Made by a program: the position numbers and the translations under genes | The notes under the pieces: model-generated | Seen by the model: the letters and a program-made list of their open reading frames with translations, nothing else | Database searches by the model: none | What the model was told of the DNA's origin: nothing | Part shown: positions 2,793-9,183 of the stretch, piece after piece | How positions within the stretch are numbered: the stretch's first letter is position 1 | Layout of the letters: the number at the start of each line of letters is the position of its first letter | IMG/VR virus record: IMGVR_UViG_3300030380_001482 | Location: 1 to 26,780 of that record | Length of the DNA stretch: 26,780 nucleotides | Direction: 5' to 3' (one strand) | Origin: a virus

Positions 2793-3386
2793 TTAATATT
2801 CGCCTTGTATTTTGTGTAAATTTGAGTGTTTTAAATAATATATACTAACGATAGGATAACAAACATCATAAGAAATTCTAGAGGTTTTGGTTGTATGAAC
2901 ATTATATACTTCAGCAGATTTTTTTGTTTCTTTAACAATAGAACCTAATAAATTTTGTTTTTTTGATTTTATATAACAATAACTATTAATAATGTTTGTA
3001 TTTTTACAAGAGTTTTTAGGGTTATAAAAAAATACTACTTCTTGTTGTTGTTGAAAAAGTGCATAACAATTTGAACTTGCAATATCATTATCAGCTATAC
3101 AAATATCTATTTCATTTTCCCTTCTCATTCTTACAGATCCATCTAATTCAACATATCCAACAACAGGATATTTAATAATATTGTCATCTAATAATTTTAT
3201 GTACGGAACATCTAGACTTTCACCATATTTTTTTGCGTGTTCAATGCTCATTTTTCTGTGACCAGTTAAATGTAAACTAACAGTGGATTTATCTATTCCT
3301 GTTAATTTTGATAAAGCTAATCCAGTTCCTTTAGTTAATCCCTTTAATTGTGCATATTTACGCAAATTTTCATTCATGTAAGTCAT
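2793..3386 (-). CDS. CI-like phage repressor (HTH plus degenerate S24-like C-terminus)
   Basis: 197 aa. Residues about 5-50 form an XRE-type helix-turn-helix: 'LSKLTGIDKSTVSLHLTGHRKM' is a typical helix, turn and recognition helix. The C-terminal half has the strand pattern of LexA/CI dimerisation domains, opening with 'YPVVGYVELDG' and closing with 'CYPIVSIYYLK'. I do not see the G-D-S-M serine motif or the catalytic lysine region of self-cleaving S24 peptidases. It probably dimerises without RecA-driven autocleavage. The gene faces away from the rightward early operon and lies between two operator-like repeats. Start: ATG at 3386, with in-frame ATGs also at 3377 and 3371. No clear ribosome site is present, so the message could be leaderless. 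Confidence 0.8.
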   Translation of the reverse strand: MTYMNENLRKYAQLKGLTKGTGLALSKLTGIDKSTVSLHLTGHRKMSIEHAKKYGESLDVPYIKLLDDNIIKYPVVGYVELDGSVRMRRENEIDICIADNDIASSNCYALFQQQQEVVFFYNPKNSCKNTNIINSYCYIKSKKQNLLGSIVKETKKSAEVYNVHTTKTSRISYDVCYPIVSIYYLKHSNLHKIQGEY

Positions 3387-5397: not shown

Positions 5398-5649
5398 ATG
5401 GTAAACATGATGAAAAAATCTAATAAAAAATCTAAAAAATCATCTAATGATGAACTACTAGACAAAGACATAAGATGTAGTTTATTCATTCATAACGACC
5501 AAGATAATAACAACAATGTAATAGTCGTATTTCAGGGCTTTGATGATAAAGACGAATGTTTAAAGTTTGTTGAGAACTATAAAAGCGACTCAAAATCTTA
5601 TAGAGAAATAGATCAAGAACACTACGGATCATTGTTTACAATACATTAA
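5398..5649 (+). CDS. Hypothetical protein, 83 aa
   Basis: Starts MVNMMKKSNKKSKKSS, a basic disordered tail, followed by an acidic, probably alpha/beta part with a run of four Asn in 'DQDNNNNVIVVFQGF' (residues 35-49) and 'CLKFVENYK'. No family is recognised. ATGs at 5407 and 5410 are alternative starts. No clear ribosome site is visible for any of them, which lowers confidence. It stands alone on the plus strand, 187 bases after the early operon, and converges on the leftward cassette with a hairpin between them. Confidence 0.55.
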   Translation: MVNMMKKSNKKSKKSSNDELLDKDIRCSLFIHNDQDNNNNVIVVFQGFDDKDECLKFVENYKSDSKSYREIDQEHYGSLFTIH

Positions 5650-5675
5650 GGCAACCCAAGAATATCGGATTGCCT
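5649..5675. terminator. Hairpin between convergent genes
   Basis: AGGCAA (5649-5654) pairs with TTGCCT (5670-5675). After one C/A mismatch, CC/GG (5656-5657 with 5667-5668) extends the stem. It begins at the stop codon of the 83-aa gene and lies 15 bases from the ParB-like stop, so it could end transcripts from both sides. No long T-run is present on either strand. Confidence 0.5.
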
Positions 5676-5689
5676 AAAAATATTATAAT

Positions 5690-6436
5690 TTACTCGAAGT
5701 AATATTTAGCTTTTTGTCTGTTTTTATAATTATGAACAGATAAGATACTTTTTAGATTTTCTTCAACTGTATATGCGTTTTTCCATTGATGAGGAAATTT
5801 AGTAAAGTTTTCTAAAAAGGTATAAATGTCAAAATTATCTTGCTTTCTTAATTTTAGTAAAGCACGAATAAAATAAATTCTATTCCATATTTTAGGCTCT
5901 ATTTTAGATTCTTTTAACATTAATATTTGACCTTTAACTTTTTCAAAAACAGGATTTGGAATTTCTAAGTTTCCATTCCTAAAGTCAAAATAGCTACTTC
6001 TAATTTTATCTTCACCTAAAGATAAATAAGAACAGGCTTCAACAACAGTAGAATGAGATACGCCTAAAGAAACTAATTCTAAATATTTCTTATAATGTTC
6101 TCGATTTTTACTATGTATGACAAAAGCACCCGCAATATCAATATTGTTCCAATTATTTTGAACTGAATTGATATCTCTTATTAAGTCAATTAGTTTGCTT
6201 TTTTCTACATGAAAGACAGAATATCGAATAGGAATGTTTAAAGTTTTACAACATTCAAACCTATTTTGTCCGTCAATAATTTGTTTATATTGATCGACCA
6301 CAATAGGATTTACCAATCCAAATGTTTTTATACTATCAATCATTTTACTTACTTTGGAAGATTTAATTTCTCTATTTCCTTCAACGAATATAAATTCGTG
6401 ATAGTTATTAGAGGTGTAAATCTGATCTTGTTTCAT
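5690..6436 (-). CDS. ParB N-terminal-domain protein
   Basis: 248 aa. The ParB/Spo0J-type domain is clear: a 'GNREI' segment (residues 20-24), 'MIDSIKTFGLVNPIVVD' (32-48) and the 'QIIDGQNRFECCKTL' box (52-66). After it comes 'DINSVQNNWNNIDIAG' and 'HYKKYLELVSLGVSHSTVVEA', a helical middle with an HTH-like turn that I recall from many non-partition ParB-like proteins of phages and mobile elements. The C-terminus is helical and Lys/Arg-rich. In the ParB superfamily this domain can bind CTP/ATP, clamp DNA or act as a nuclease. No ParA partner is present, so plasmid-style partition is unlikely and a DNA-binding regulator is more probable. It is the last gene of the leftward cassette. Confidence 0.8.
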   Translation of the reverse strand: MKQDQIYTSNNYHEFIFVEGNREIKSSKVSKMIDSIKTFGLVNPIVVDQYKQIIDGQNRFECCKTLNIPIRYSVFHVEKSKLIDLIRDINSVQNNWNNIDIAGAFVIHSKNREHYKKYLELVSLGVSHSTVVEACSYLSLGEDKIRSSYFDFRNGNLEIPNPVFEKVKGQILMLKESKIEPKIWNRIYFIRALLKLRKQDNFDIYTFLENFTKFPHQWKNAYTVEENLKSILSVHNYKNRQKAKYYFE

Positions 6437-6452
6437 GATTTATTCTCTTTCT

Positions 6453-6496
6453 AGTATGCTAAATACATACTTAAAAGCCCTATAAAGAGCTTTTAA
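6453..6496 (-). promoter_or_regulatory. Hairpin plus 19-bp dyad upstream of the ParB-like gene
   Basis: A hairpin, TTAAAAGC (6471-6478) with GCTTTTAA (6489-6496) plus two inner pairs, follows the 84-aa gene in the leftward direction. It adjoins a dyad AGTATG (6453-6458) / CATACT (6466-6471) with a 7-base spacer. The ParB-like ATG lies 16 bases further on, preceded by AGAAAGAGAA as ribosome site. The hairpin could end or attenuate the upstream unit and the dyad could be an operator. The same order is seen at 7665-7707. Confidence 0.45.
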
Positions 6497-6504
6497 CTAT
6501 ATAT

Positions 6505-6759
6505 TTAATATTCTGTAGTAAGTTTAAATTTAACTTCTAAATAGTTATCATCACCATAAACTCCACAGTGTTGATCTGAATGATATCTAAGAATTTCTAT
6601 CAATTCTACTAAATCGTAAACATTACATTTAATAGTTTCACCTTTTTTTATATGAGGTTTTTTTAACCTAATTGATTTTTCTTTCTTATTATCCCATTTA
6701 GTTTTAATACATTCAACTTTTGTAATTTCTAAATCATCATAACTAAATATTGGTTTCAT
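6505..6759 (-). CDS. Hypothetical protein, 84 aa
   Basis: Begins MKPIFSYDDLEITKVECIK. It looks like a small alpha/beta protein: strands near residues 10-20 and 40-47 (TIKCNVYDL), one helix (VELIEILRYHS), and a terminal strand (YLEVKFKLT). No family is recognised. The ATG at 6759 lies inside the end of the 62-aa gene (17-base overlap) and has AAAGAGGT eight bases upstream, a good ribosome site. It is followed by the hairpin at 6471-6496, so it is probably the last gene of its unit. Confidence 0.6.
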   Translation of the reverse strand: MKPIFSYDDLEITKVECIKTKWDNKKEKSIRLKKPHIKKGETIKCNVYDLVELIEILRYHSDQHCGVYGDDNYLEVKFKLTTEY

Positions 6760-6931
6760 AATTATTTACCTCTTTATTATTACTAAAATAGTCATAAGAT
6801 AAAATCTTATTGACTCGTTTGCGTTCCTTTAATCGCATAGACCTCTCTCTTTCATAGTAGTATGAGGTCTTACCATTACTGAAACGATATTTATCATTAC
6901 TGATAAACTCTTTTTTTTCTGTTTTAATCAT
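6743..6931 (-). CDS. Hypothetical small basic protein, 62 aa
   Basis: Unrecognised. Starts MIKTEKKEFISNDKYRFSNG, then 'TSYYYERERSMRLKERKRVN' (residues 22-41), a dense run of Arg/Lys/Glu that should form a charged helix, then a Tyr/Asn-rich tail. GAGGATAAAAGACA before the ATG provides a ribosome site. The charged composition could suit RNA or DNA binding. It overlaps the next gene by 17 bases and is part of the middle unit of the leftward cassette. Confidence 0.55.
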   Translation of the reverse strand: MIKTEKKEFISNDKYRFSNGKTSYYYERERSMRLKERKRVNKILSYDYFSNNKEVNNYETNI

Positions 6932-6950
6932 TGTCTTTTATCCTCGATTT

Positions 6951-7265
6951 CTAGGCAACAATATAAATATTATCTATGGTGTTATTATCCAAAACATGAA
7001 TTTCAATACCACAATCTTTAACTCTTAAAAATTCATCTTTGGCTAATTTTTTATTAATATTAGACCTATAAGAAAATATCTTTTGGACTTCGGGCTTATC
7101 CCCGTAATCTATCGGTAATAATTTTATAGATTTATTTAAAACCATAACTGTATTATGGCTTTTTGGTGAATATTTTAATTTTTCAACCCAATGATGACAC
7201 TTTGATATTAATTCATTGTGCCATGGTTCAAGGCTAAAATGATTTATAGGTGTATGACTAGCCAT
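6951..7265 (-). CDS. Hypothetical protein, 104 aa
   Basis: Starts MASHTPINHFSLEPWHNELI. The N-terminal 50 residues hold His and Trp in 'EPWHNELISKCHHWVEKL'. The C-terminus is predicted beta (GIEIHVLDNNTIDNIYIVA). No known family, and the CHH pair alone is not a metal motif. Its start shares an A with the stop of the 35-aa membrane protein gene (TAATG at 7263-7267), so the two are translated in tandem. Coupling to a membrane peptide hints that they work together, but this is an inference. Confidence 0.6.
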   Translation of the reverse strand: MASHTPINHFSLEPWHNELISKCHHWVEKLKYSPKSHNTVMVLNKSIKLLPIDYGDKPEVQKIFSYRSNINKKLAKDEFLRVKDCGIEIHVLDNNTIDNIYIVA

Positions 7266-7372
7266 TATTTATCCTCACTCTCTTTTTTAGCTCTCTTATA
7301 AAGTTTGTAAGATACATAAAAGAACACTATCAATAAGATAATGTCAGCTCCGTCCAAGCCATGAAGCCACAT
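7265..7372 (-). CDS. Small single-span membrane protein, 35 aa
   Basis: A 35-codon ORF read from the bases: ATG at 7372, TAA at 7265-7267. The product starts MWLHGLDGAD, then a hydrophobic stretch IILLIVFFYVSY (residues 11-22), then a basic and charged tail (KLYKRAKKESEDK). This predicts one transmembrane helix with the C-terminus in the cytoplasm by the positive-inside rule. Both ends are locked into neighbours by TAATG overlaps, with the stop of the 91-aa gene upstream and the start of the 104-aa gene downstream. This strongly argues that it is translated. Phage single-span peptides of this size can be superinfection-exclusion factors, holin-like or signalling peptides. None can be chosen from the sequence alone. 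Confidence 0.75.
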   Translation of the reverse strand: MWLHGLDGADIILLIVFFYVSYKLYKRAKKESEDK

Positions 7373-7647
7373 TATATAGACTCACTTACTGAATAATTAA
7401 TCTCTTTTGTTTTAGGATTATACAAAGCAGTTTTAACTATATTGCCGTCAATCATAAAATCAAAACGCATTAAGCCGTCATCTTGATAGGTTAATTGCGT
7501 ACCATGATCTAAAAACTCAAAAGAATTTCTTGAACTTGTGCCAACAAATACTTTTGTTTCAGTGTAGCCATTAGCTCCAAATGATTTGCTATATGGTTGT
7601 TTATAATCTGGGCTATTAACTTGATTATATATTTTATATTGTCTCAT
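7372..7647 (-). CDS. Hypothetical beta-rich protein, 91 aa
   Basis: I start it at the ATG at 7647 (MRQYKIYNQVNSPDYKQPYS). The frame extends seven codons further to a TTG at 7668, but that codon lies within the dyad at 7665-7683. The sequence is Tyr/Ser/Asn-rich with many short strands ('TKVFVGTSS', 'FEFLDHGTQLTY', 'LMRFDFMIDGNIVKTALYN'), suggesting a small beta sandwich or barrel. No family is recognised. Its stop overlaps the start of the 35-aa membrane protein by one base. It opens the middle unit of the leftward cassette. Confidence 0.6.
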   Translation of the reverse strand: MRQYKIYNQVNSPDYKQPYSKSFGANGYTETKVFVGTSSRNSFEFLDHGTQLTYQDDGLMRFDFMIDGNIVKTALYNPKTKEINYSVSESI

Positions 7648-7664
7648 ATTTATTTTCGCTTTCT

Positions 7665-7707
7665 TCAATACTCAGTGTATTGATCTAAGGGCTATTAAAA
7701 GCCCTTA
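7665..7707 (-). promoter_or_regulatory. Hairpin plus 19-bp dyad upstream of the middle unit
   Basis: Hairpin TAAGGGCT (7686-7693) / AGCCCTTA (7700-7707), 8 bp with a six-base loop, then two bases away the perfect dyad TCAATAC (7665-7671) / GTATTGA (7677-7683) with a 5-base spacer. The ATG at 7647 lies 17 bases past the dyad. Order and spacing match those upstream of the ParB-like gene, and both hairpins share TTAAAAGCCCT. The likely roles are a terminator or attenuator plus an operator. Confidence 0.5.
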
Positions 7708-7716
7708 AATAAATAC

Positions 7717-7884
7717 CTAATTAAAAAAAGGTGTTGGAGTTCTTCCAATCTTTACAAGATACAAATTAATTTGATTACAATAATTCTCATATTGTTTAAG
7801 TGTTAATCCTGTAAATTGAACTGTAAGACCTTTATCAATGTTCTTGACTATTTCTTCTAATTGTCTTTGAGTAAGTTTTAACAT
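7717..7884 (-). CDS. Hypothetical small protein, 55 aa
   Basis: ATG at 7884, TAG at 7717-7719. The start lies inside the last codons of the 152-aa gene (7-base overlap, ATGTTAA), a typical coupling arrangement. The product begins MLKLTQRQLEEIVKNIDKG, continues with a short strand (LTVQFTGLTL), and then a helix 'KQYENYCNQINLYLVKI'. No family is recognised. The 'GLTLKQYENY' segment reads as a small strand-turn-helix. It ends ten bases before the hairpin at 7686-7707, so it closes the first unit of the leftward cassette. Confidence 0.65.
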   Translation of the reverse strand: MLKLTQRQLEEIVKNIDKGLTVQFTGLTLKQYENYCNQINLYLVKIGRTPTPFFN

Positions 7885-8336
7885 CTGTAAATAAAGTAAT
7901 TTGAATACTCCTCCTCTACACCGTCATAATTATTTAAAAAATGACCTCTACCGTCAGATCGGATTGCATCTTCTACAAAATGATCGAAGTCATCTATTAA
8001 AGATAATACCGCTTCGTTTGAACTCTCGCATTGTTCAGAAAGTATTTTAAAAACTTCAATACTAGCTTTTGAATGACAAGCTAAGAAAGAAGGATTAAAA
8101 GTCCAAGCAGAATCTTCAATATACTCTTTGACTTTCTCATCTGCTTCTTCGTCAGTAAGAACCATATAAGACTCATTGACATTCTCTCCGTCTAAGTCAA
8201 TGTAAGAAGTATCATCATCATTGATCTTAAATTTGATATGATTCATTTCTTCTTTAGTAAATCCGTCATTAACTAAAAAAGAATGTAGAGCTTTGGCTCT
8301 ATCGTCATGATCGTGATTAATATAATTAACAGTCAT
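7878..8336 (-). CDS. Acidic conserved phage protein with SDGRGHFL motif, 152 aa
   Basis: A strongly acidic protein (Asp+Glu far exceed Lys+Arg). Landmarks are 'YMVLTDEEADEKVKEYIEDSAWTFNPSFL' split over residues 57-85 and, near the C-terminus, 'SDGRGHFLNNYDGVEEE' followed by 'YFIYRC'. I recall the same pair of motifs in proteins of unknown function from many tailed phages, but cannot name a characterised member. The acidic character could suit a DNA mimic, but equally a soluble regulator. GAGG sits nine bases before the ATG. It heads the leftward cassette, reading from a candidate promoter at 8361-8395. Confidence 0.7.
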   Translation of the reverse strand: MTVNYINHDHDDRAKALHSFLVNDGFTKEEMNHIKFKINDDDTSYIDLDGENVNESYMVLTDEEADEKVKEYIEDSAWTFNPSFLACHSKASIEVFKILSEQCESSNEAVLSLIDDFDHFVEDAIRSDGRGHFLNNYDGVEEEYSNYFIYRC

Positions 8337-8360
8337 AATTAATACCTCGCTTTATTAATT

Positions 8361-8395
8361 ATCTATAATAGATCAAATATTATAAATGATGTCAA
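8361..8395 (-). promoter_or_regulatory. Candidate leftward promoter with dyad operator
   Basis: On the minus strand a perfect TTGACA lies at 8395-8390. TATAAT lies at 8384-8379, too close to pair with it, and TATTAT lies at 8370-8365 with a 19-base spacer. A perfect dyad ATCTATAATAGAT (8361-8373) covers the expected start site. This would drive the 152-aa gene and its followers, possibly under repression. The exact -10 box cannot be fixed by eye. Confidence 0.45.
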
Positions 8396-8560
8396 GTAGA
8401 TTTAATGACAAAATACGAAAATAATGGAAAGATTGACAAAATGGGGAATGATAAACAACCAAAAAAACCACGAATGAATTACAACCAAATTAAACGAATT
8501 AACAACTAACTTTAATGAAACATATATTAATTATAATAAGAACTAATAGATATATAGGGA

Positions 8561-8666
8561 GTTAGTAAGATAGACTAATAAATAGATAGATAAGAAGTAA
8601 TTATATTATTAATGTAATAATACATTGATATTGTTAGTTAATATTGATCTTTGTTAGTGGGTTAGT
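8561..8666 (+). repeat. GTTAGT direct-repeat cluster (iteron-like)
   Basis: GTTAGT occurs at 8561, 8633, 8653 and 8661, and as the complement ACTAAC at 8504-8509. The two central copies extend to ATTGAT-(2 or 3 bases)-TGTTAGT, at 8624-8638 and 8643-8658, offset by about 20 bases or two helical turns. Such phased direct repeats in AT-rich DNA resemble iterons of replication origins or activator sites. The base composition makes chance repeats easier, so this is tentative. Confidence 0.4.
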
Positions 8667-9003
8667 ATTTAGGTTTATTGTTGTGGATATATATTATTAC
8701 AAAACATTCTACAAAGTCCTTAAAAGAATACATAAGCAATATAATTACAGTTATAAAACTACATAAATAAACATATAACCAACACTATTGTAATAATTGT
8801 TGTATTTATTAGATAAGAACTACCTAGTCAGAACAGATTTAATTAATTATACGAACAGAATACGCACAAACCCCCATGCACATATATTTCTATATATATG
8901 GAGTCATTACAACTCAGAACACATCTCTCTAAAGGCTCACTAAATAGTAGATTTGTTATAAAAAAAAATTAACATAATTAAAAAAGGCACAATAAGGACT
9001 GAT

Positions 9004-9183
9004 ATGAAAAAAAAGGCAAATAAGAAGGCTACAAAGCCTAAGATAAGTGTGATGAGTGTTTTGTTAGGAGATATGCCAGATAGGTCTCCTGTGGTTCAGA
9101 ACTCAGGAAAAAACCTAGTTTCTGATCGCAGTGTATCTCGTATGAACGATTTTTTAAAGGGTAATCAAAAAGATGATTCATGA
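9004..9183 (+). CDS. Small basic protein in the small-terminase position, 59 aa
   Basis: ATG at 9004 with AAGGA five bases upstream, stop TGA at 9181-9183. It overlaps the large terminase start by four bases (ATGA). The product begins MKKKANKKATKPKISVMS, a lysine-rich tail, followed by 'VLLGDMPDRSPVV' and 'VSRMNDFLKGNQ'. It is the first gene of the late operon, exactly where the small terminase subunit normally sits. It is much shorter than known small terminases (usually over 100 aa) and has no obvious HTH. It may be a reduced DNA-recognition subunit or a separate coupling peptide. I do not assert terminase function. Confidence 0.6.
   Translation: MKKKANKKATKPKISVMSVLLGDMPDRSPVVQNSGKNLVSDRSVSRMNDFLKGNQKDDS

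Follow-up and report, generated by a model that had tools for sequence, protein, structure and literature searches.

In the early region of bacteriophage T7, intergenic hairpins of ~20 bp with an internal mismatch are cut by RNase III and divide the polycistronic mRNA. To our knowledge, these sites have neither a second, mutually exclusive helix nor a fixed position for a stop codon. In the trp and erm leader attenuators, a segment of RNA pairs with one of two partners, and the ribosome decides between them. Integron attC sites carry R″ and R′ boxes, with AAC and GTT, at the ends of the folded site, and it is the bottom strand that recombines. Another kind of repeat is the Extended Start-Associated Sequence (ESAS) of the Cluster K mycobacteriophages: inverted repeats located just upstream of the starts of many unrelated non-structural genes, with no known function (PMC3203893). 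ESAS have an imperfect 17-bp repeat consensus that is specific to the subcluster, and lie beside a 13-bp Start-Associated Sequence (SAS) of the GGGATAGGAGCCC type; the part of the report drawn on here mentions neither an arm with a stop codon nor an alternative helix, and describes no covariation in the stems (PMC3203893). Here we describe an apparently undescribed, strongly covarying RNA element found in two gaps of a leftward operon in a linear virus record of 26,780 bases (IMG/VR record IMGVR_UViG_3300030380_001482, analysed over its whole length and referred to below as the window).

The element begins at the upstream gene's stop codon, which forms nucleotides (nt) 1–3, and extends as far as the ribosome site preceding the downstream gene. 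From 5′ to 3′, the stop codon opens a short arm 1 (TAGRTATTTAT or related sequences); a variable hairpin follows, then segments 2a and 2b with a loop between them, and finally a ribosome site rich in purines and the start codon. The Shine–Dalgarno (SD) sequence is AGAAAGCGA or AAAGGAG-like, and the dyad formed by 2a and 2b usually ends 13–23 nt upstream of the start codon. The initial annotation of the window had described its two long gaps as a hairpin followed by a 19-nt dyad, with AGAAAG-type ribosome sites and a start codon 16–17 nt further on, and this shared plan was confirmed (16 and 17 nt; coordinates in Table 1). It had also taken TTAAAAGCCCT to be a feature of both hairpins. In one copy this sequence is part of an arm, in the other it spans loop and arm; the stems of relatives are quite different, and the sequence was rejected as a shared signal. 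The conserved feature is a third segment absent from that annotation, the stop-codon arm, for which the first dyad arm is a potential pairing partner.

Relatives were gathered through the terminase (80) and through the ParB-like protein A of the operon (12), and 39 loci had enough upstream sequence for comparison. When all leftward intergenic gaps of 40–260 nt in the relative loci were surveyed, unselected for folding, the identical plan was found to recur between differing gene pairs. The folds of both window copies are far better than those of shuffles that preserve dinucleotides (z of −4.5 to −6.2, equalled by 0 of 200 shuffles). A covariance model of class I, built from 20 copies of the type found at 7656 and from relatives only, detects the copy at 6444 (class II) with 34.8 bits and E 0.002; the two gaps are homologous copies of one RNA element. 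Over 662 kb, the strong matches of the same model are located in these leftward operons on the gene strand, and its opposite-strand matches are shadows of the palindrome. A second covariance model, R2, with both window types in its training set, finds no further site in the window beyond such reverse-strand shadows, while Rfam gives no match near gathering scores, and none that is convincing, in the window or in eight other loci.

The element is present in at least two phage lineages, that of the window (lineage 1) and a second with a different terminase (lineage 2). An upstream-frame stop codon lies exactly at nt 1–3 in 42 of the 43 copies of lineage-1 type, four of which come from contig L162. 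In lineage 2, 33 of the 42 copies that bear a stop have it at nt 1–3, closing an open reading frame of 30 codons or more, and in others the stop of the gene directly abuts the element.

Segment 2a is complementary both to arm 1 and to 2b, giving two mutually exclusive structures. In the first, S1, arm 1 with its stop codon is paired to 2a around the central hairpin, producing one long hairpin of 8–9 bp, a 1 × 1 mismatch in most copies, and a further 9–11 bp. In the second, S2, the central hairpin is accompanied by the dyad (2a with 2b), which forms a second hairpin beside the SD sequence. The dyad stems are 6–9 bp long and their sequence varies by class, with compensation (TCAATA, TGAATA, AGTATG, AGTATC and CTTAGG); within class I it is fairly constant (TCAATAYC). 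Most copies have no T-run of the intrinsic-terminator type after the central stem or after S1, and a terminator scan of the window calls copy 1 only, with few T after the stem. A third state, noticed by eye in class II, in which the 3′ arm of the central hairpin pairs with the SD sequence, is not supported by folds in which the stop codon is blocked. Gaps of 108–120 nt in three relatives (L025, 6273–6380, and, on the reverse complement, L092, 9025–9132, and L085, 3749–3868) follow the same plan. In these, TAAACTAA pairs with TTGGTTTA, the dyad is CTTGG..CCAAG, and an elaborated central domain ends in a strong T-run.

Covariation was counted on copies that are related to one another, and the shuffle counts given here are not probabilities. 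Within class I, 10 of the 18 pairs of the central stem and dyad have changed on both sides, a value reached in 0 of 500 shuffles. Across 31 diverse copies, S1 shows compensatory changes in 13 of 18 pairs, with a score of 0.526 versus 0.201 (0 of 500 shuffles), and slid controls are all far lower. The third base of the stop codon itself covaries with its partner in this set (G-C in 18 copies, A-U in 11). In lineage 2 the same position is A-U in 24 copies, U-A in five and U-G in one; the stop codon TAA faces TTA there, and in the leader copies, which precede a first gene, TAT faces ATA. When arm 1 is exchanged between elements, the pairing energy changes from −6.0 to −2.4 kcal/mol, a cost of ~3.6 kcal/mol (permutation p ≤ 5e-5). 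In lineage 2, the covariation scores of the lower S1 helix and of the dyad are each matched by 0 of 500 shuffles, although the S1 test in this lineage leans towards the model used to find the copies. The dyad is paired in 94.9% of cells in lineage 2, and the R2 model that found these copies contains S1, not the dyad.

The strand on which the central stem folds can also be read from its pairs, because a G.U pair on the coding strand corresponds to A.C on the other strand. Over 88 unique copies the central stem has 62 G.U and 0 A.C (the scoring is symmetric and the cells are not independent), and in the 31 copies derived from gap positions it has 29 and 0. This points to a stem that folds on the mRNA strand, and not to a palindrome of double-stranded DNA or a bottom-strand site such as attC. 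The RNA level of the element and its anatomy are well supported.

The distribution of the element was followed by pattern scans of 2.9 million viral contigs and by model R2; in all, 113 copies, 88 of them distinct, were collected from contigs of marine phages that differ in their terminases. The first wide pattern scan gave many chance matches without a central hairpin, and a scan by structure descriptor, with no covariance model, was not specific enough. The copies join 62 different combinations of gene families, drawn from 39 families upstream and 49 downstream, and some of these families are common to both lineages. The terminase of lineage 2 is 58% identical to those of Pelagibacter phages HTVC023P and HTVC027P. 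No element was found in the regions around terL of these two phages, 023Pt_psg01 and DSL-LC04, and no convincing element in HTVC106P, HTVC121P or Venkman. Contig L255, with four elements, has a terminase 39% identical to that of lineage 2 and is a possible third lineage.

The operons of lineage 2 are arrays. In L194, nine elements stand at consecutive gene boundaries, each parting single genes, and a leader copy precedes the first gene. The leader copies (TATGTATTTTTGATAGGG; L194, L183, L188 and others) read T ATG TAT TTT TGA/TAA where other copies open with a stop; there, a start codon with a possible frame of three codons takes the place of the stop. A conserved noncoding leader (..AATCGGTGACACCGATAAGGAAACAGTC..) is located ~130 nt upstream of the leader element in L183, L188, L194, L177 and others. 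It precedes the first element in most lineage-2 operons, and searches of it gave no convincing Rfam match and no tRNA.

We tentatively propose that the gaps are a portable, cis-acting intercistronic RNA element which punctuates an operon of swappable genes and whose fold is set by the ribosome at the stop codon, a reading to which we give somewhat less than an even chance. With no ribosome near, arm 1 would pair with 2a before 2b is transcribed, and S1 would form. A ribosome at the stop codon would cover roughly the first 12 nt, which make up arm 1, and would free 2a so that S2 could form. The element would in this way report whether the upstream gene is being translated, and the choice between S1 and S2 would set the degree to which the downstream gene is expressed separately from the upstream one. 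Because the predicted accessibility of the SD sequence and start codon barely changes and there is no terminator tail, the output is sought in initiation (through the hairpin beside the SD sequence), mRNA processing or stability. Genes carrying their own punctuation could then be exchanged and remain expressed. Both the gating by the ribosome and an output in translation, processing or stability are inferred.

Several observations weigh against this proposal. No covariation is seen in the stop-codon helix when class I is taken by itself. This helix, formed by arm 1, counts 38 G.U against 29 A.C pairs; the A.C mismatches recur, mostly at nt 4 and nt 7, and make it the least certain of the helices. 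The dyad is almost purely Watson–Crick (638 versus 1 G.U), as a DNA palindrome would be. The leader copies of lineage 2 lack a stop codon, and an upstream gene is therefore not required for the element to be present. The predicted energies of S1 and S2 differ by no more than 3 kcal/mol in 86 of 92 copies (39 of 43 and 47 of 49), which favours the proposal, but this near-balance may partly reflect similar lengths of AU-rich helix. Finally, predicted accessibility of the SD sequence and start codon is nearly equal in S1 and S2 (0.69/0.58 versus 0.77/0.63), and a classical SD-sequestering switch was rejected on these grounds.

The main rival is mRNA processing by RNase III or a similar enzyme. 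Here S1, as a hairpin of ~20 bp with one internal mismatch, would be a constitutive site cut at each boundary; the dyad would then re-form at the 5′ end of the downstream mRNA as a protective hairpin, splitting the operon into separate mRNAs. The two helices of S1 flanking a 1 × 1 mismatch do amount to an irregular intergenic stem of ~20 bp, and the distribution of one element per boundary, plus one before the first gene in lineage 2 (the leader copies), is as expected of such sites. Processing would also account for two alternative helices without sequestration of the SD sequence. By itself, however, it leaves the exact position of the stop codon at nt 1–3 unexplained, and the T7 sites known to us lack the alternative helix. 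We regard processing as unlikely to be the explanation, while taking it seriously.

Site-specific recombination, in which cassettes of gene plus element would be moved via a folded single-strand site as in integron attC, is improbable. It would suit the gene–element arrays in permuted order with a leader copy at the start of the array, the keeping of structure more than sequence, and the gene families common to both phage lineages. However, the G.U pairs of the central stem fit folding of the coding strand, whereas attC uses the bottom strand; by eye, the arm ends of the printed copies carry no AAC/GTT boxes; and the second helix and its covariation are left unexplained. No integron integrase was seen in a scan that covered the 93-amino-acid (aa) integrase fragment in the window, which matches no NCBIfam family.

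We likewise give little credence to the idea that the repeats are only linkers, that is, joints for the homologous exchange of genes in which the hairpins have no other role. Homology between relatives does often end near the edges of the element. The 5′ parts are more alike when the upstream gene is shared and the tails when the downstream gene is shared, a weak contrast that is confounded by relatedness, and the link of the element to one gene side is a weak gradient only. Compensatory changes, which keep the structure while the sequence diverges, are the opposite of what a joint needs. It is very improbable that the dyads are DNA operators, bound by a regulator of the phage such as CI or the ParB-like protein A at a promoter for each unit: they are near-perfect palindromes with almost no G.U, and TCAATAYC is relatively constant in class I, but the dyad sequence differs wholly between classes, with compensation, elements are present in loci without gene A, no conserved promoter is seen inside the element, and a promoter scan of the window finds fewer sites than in shuffles.

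The block in which both window copies lie (Table 1) is a separate accessory operon with its own promoter and high gene turnover. Such a promoter had been suggested in the initial annotation and is supported, since the region containing its TTGACA and TCTATT boxes is kept in 13 other loci, whichever gene comes first. No operator common to the CI region and the operon promoter was found; a shared CI operator was rejected, the stretch in common being a mere AT-rich 11-mer.

Table 1. Genes, element copies and promoter region of the leftward operon in the window
Feature	Position	Strand	Description
Gene A	5690–6436	−	248 aa; ParB/Srx-type N-terminal domain (PHROG 12305); 12 relatives
Gene B	6505–6759	−	84 aa; no assigned function; TAA is nt 1–3 of element copy 1
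Gene C	6743–6931	−	62 aa; no assigned function; semi-conserved
Gene D	6951–7265	−	104 aa; no assigned function; rare
Gene E	7265–7372	−	35 aa; protein with a single transmembrane segment; near-universal at locus
Gene F	7372–7647	−	91 aa counted from ATG; no assigned function; DNA-level relative HTVC121P gp07
Gene G	7717–7884	−	55 aa; no assigned function; TAG is nt 1–3 of element copy 2
Gene H	7878–8336	−	152 aa; no assigned function; weak PHROG 15770 match; first gene of operon
Element copy 1	6444–6507	−	class II; between B and A; gap 6437–6507
Copy 1, stop codon	6505–6507	−	TAA
Copy 1, arm 1	6498–6507	−
Copy 1, central stem	6486–6496 with 6471–6481	−
Copy 1, alternative dyad	6453–6471	−
Copy 1, SD	6444–6452	−	start codon of A at 6436
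Element copy 2	7656–7719	−	class I; between G and F; gap 7648–7719
Copy 2, stop codon	7717–7719	−	TAG
Copy 2, arm 1	7712–7719	−
Copy 2, central stem	7700–7710 with 7683–7693	−
Copy 2, dyad	7665–7683	−
Copy 2, SD	7656–7664	−	start codon of F at 7647
Leftward promoter region	8337–8415	−	TTGACA 8390–8395; 17-nt spacer; TCTATT 8367–8372

Among the 39 relative loci the block is usually leftward, and its content is largely exchanged, with genes swapped almost independently. Gene E occurs in 29 of these loci, C in 13, B in 12, A in 10, G in five and H in three, D and F are each found in only one or two others, and no relative has all eight together. The gene set is largely broken up among relatives, and the self-contained eight-gene system proposed in the initial annotation is rejected as a functional unit. 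A role in superinfection exclusion or defence, also proposed there, finds no backing from the PADLOC defence models, which give only marginal MTase_II matches (E 0.002 and 0.011) and no defence family. In protein libraries, the ParB-type domain of A is the sole clear match among the operon proteins.

The protein encoded by gene E (GLDGADIILL..FFYVSYKLYKR) is the sole near-constant one amid the swapped operon, and gene E is a candidate for a core function of the operon. Within gene F, the window is related at the DNA level (7510–7647) to positions 1432–1563 of HTVC121P, a T7-like pelagiphage in which this relative is in the region beside the integrase. In three loci (L016, L033 and L041), the part of the block nearest the promoter is taken up by a family of 355-aa genes (f46). 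A strong terminator-like hairpin lies in a gap close to f46 in L033 and L041, and only a weak match to the element (E 0.02–0.03) is seen.

The leftward block (5690–8336) sits between rightward early genes, which end at 5649, and rightward late genes, which begin at 9004. A putative integrase at the left end of the window is truncated by the end of the contig. A CI-like repressor (2793–3386) is followed in the early region by exonuclease, primosomal and replication genes, and terminase, portal and structural genes are found from 9180 onward. Between the leftward promoter and the late genes, positions 8416–9003 form a long AT-rich stretch without convincing genes, in which conservation is patchy. 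The host is likely to be a SAR11-type marine bacterium, because the portal, compared with the phage collection, has its top match (43.6%) in Pelagibacter phage HTVC106P. A search for the host through genome contigs found distant terL relatives only.

The gaps are of more interest than the gene set. Since the element marks gene boundaries, it annotates at once many small phage genes to which no function is assigned, and it offers a concrete idea of how phage operons stay expressible under gene swapping. The marine group concerned is a very common one, with the lineage-2 terminase on more than 600 contigs (a count of terminases, not of elements). If gating by the ribosome is true, each gene along the operon would take its signal from the ribosome that terminates on the gene before it. 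A wider reading is possible but doubtful: abundant uncultured marine phages may carry small accessory genes as gene-plus-RNA units, in which a bistable element running from stop codon to SD sequence reads the terminating ribosome, sets up the next gene and lets unrelated phages trade expressible genes. If true, this would be a modular, ribosome-read operon grammar with no described counterpart. A search of the open-access literature found nothing on intergenic hairpins of pelagiphages; an earlier description elsewhere is possible.

The S1 hairpin of the element, like the RNase III sites of T7, is ~20 bp long, carries a mismatch and lies between genes. As in the trp and erm leaders, segment 2a has two partners between which a ribosome could choose. 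The element differs from these leaders in recurring at gene boundaries, where the terminating ribosome of the preceding gene takes the place of the leader peptide, and it shows no terminator U-tract and no sequestration of the SD sequence. With attC it has in common units of element plus gene in permuted arrays and a structure kept as sequence varies. It resembles an attC site and is not one: its central stem has G.U and no A.C on the coding strand, it has a second helix, and the arm ends of the printed copies, TAR(N)TATT and AATAYYTA, contain no AAC/GTT by eye. The closest described kind in the open-access literature appears to be the ESAS. Like these repeats, the dyad of the element ends shortly before the start codons of many downstream gene families (13–23 nt, 49 families). 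Its 6–9 bp stems vary by class with the structure kept, its SD sequence is AGAAAGCGA or AAAGGAG-like, and, as far as the part of the ESAS report drawn on here extends, the stop-codon arm and alternative helix are additions. On this comparison, the element resembles, but is not, an ESAS.

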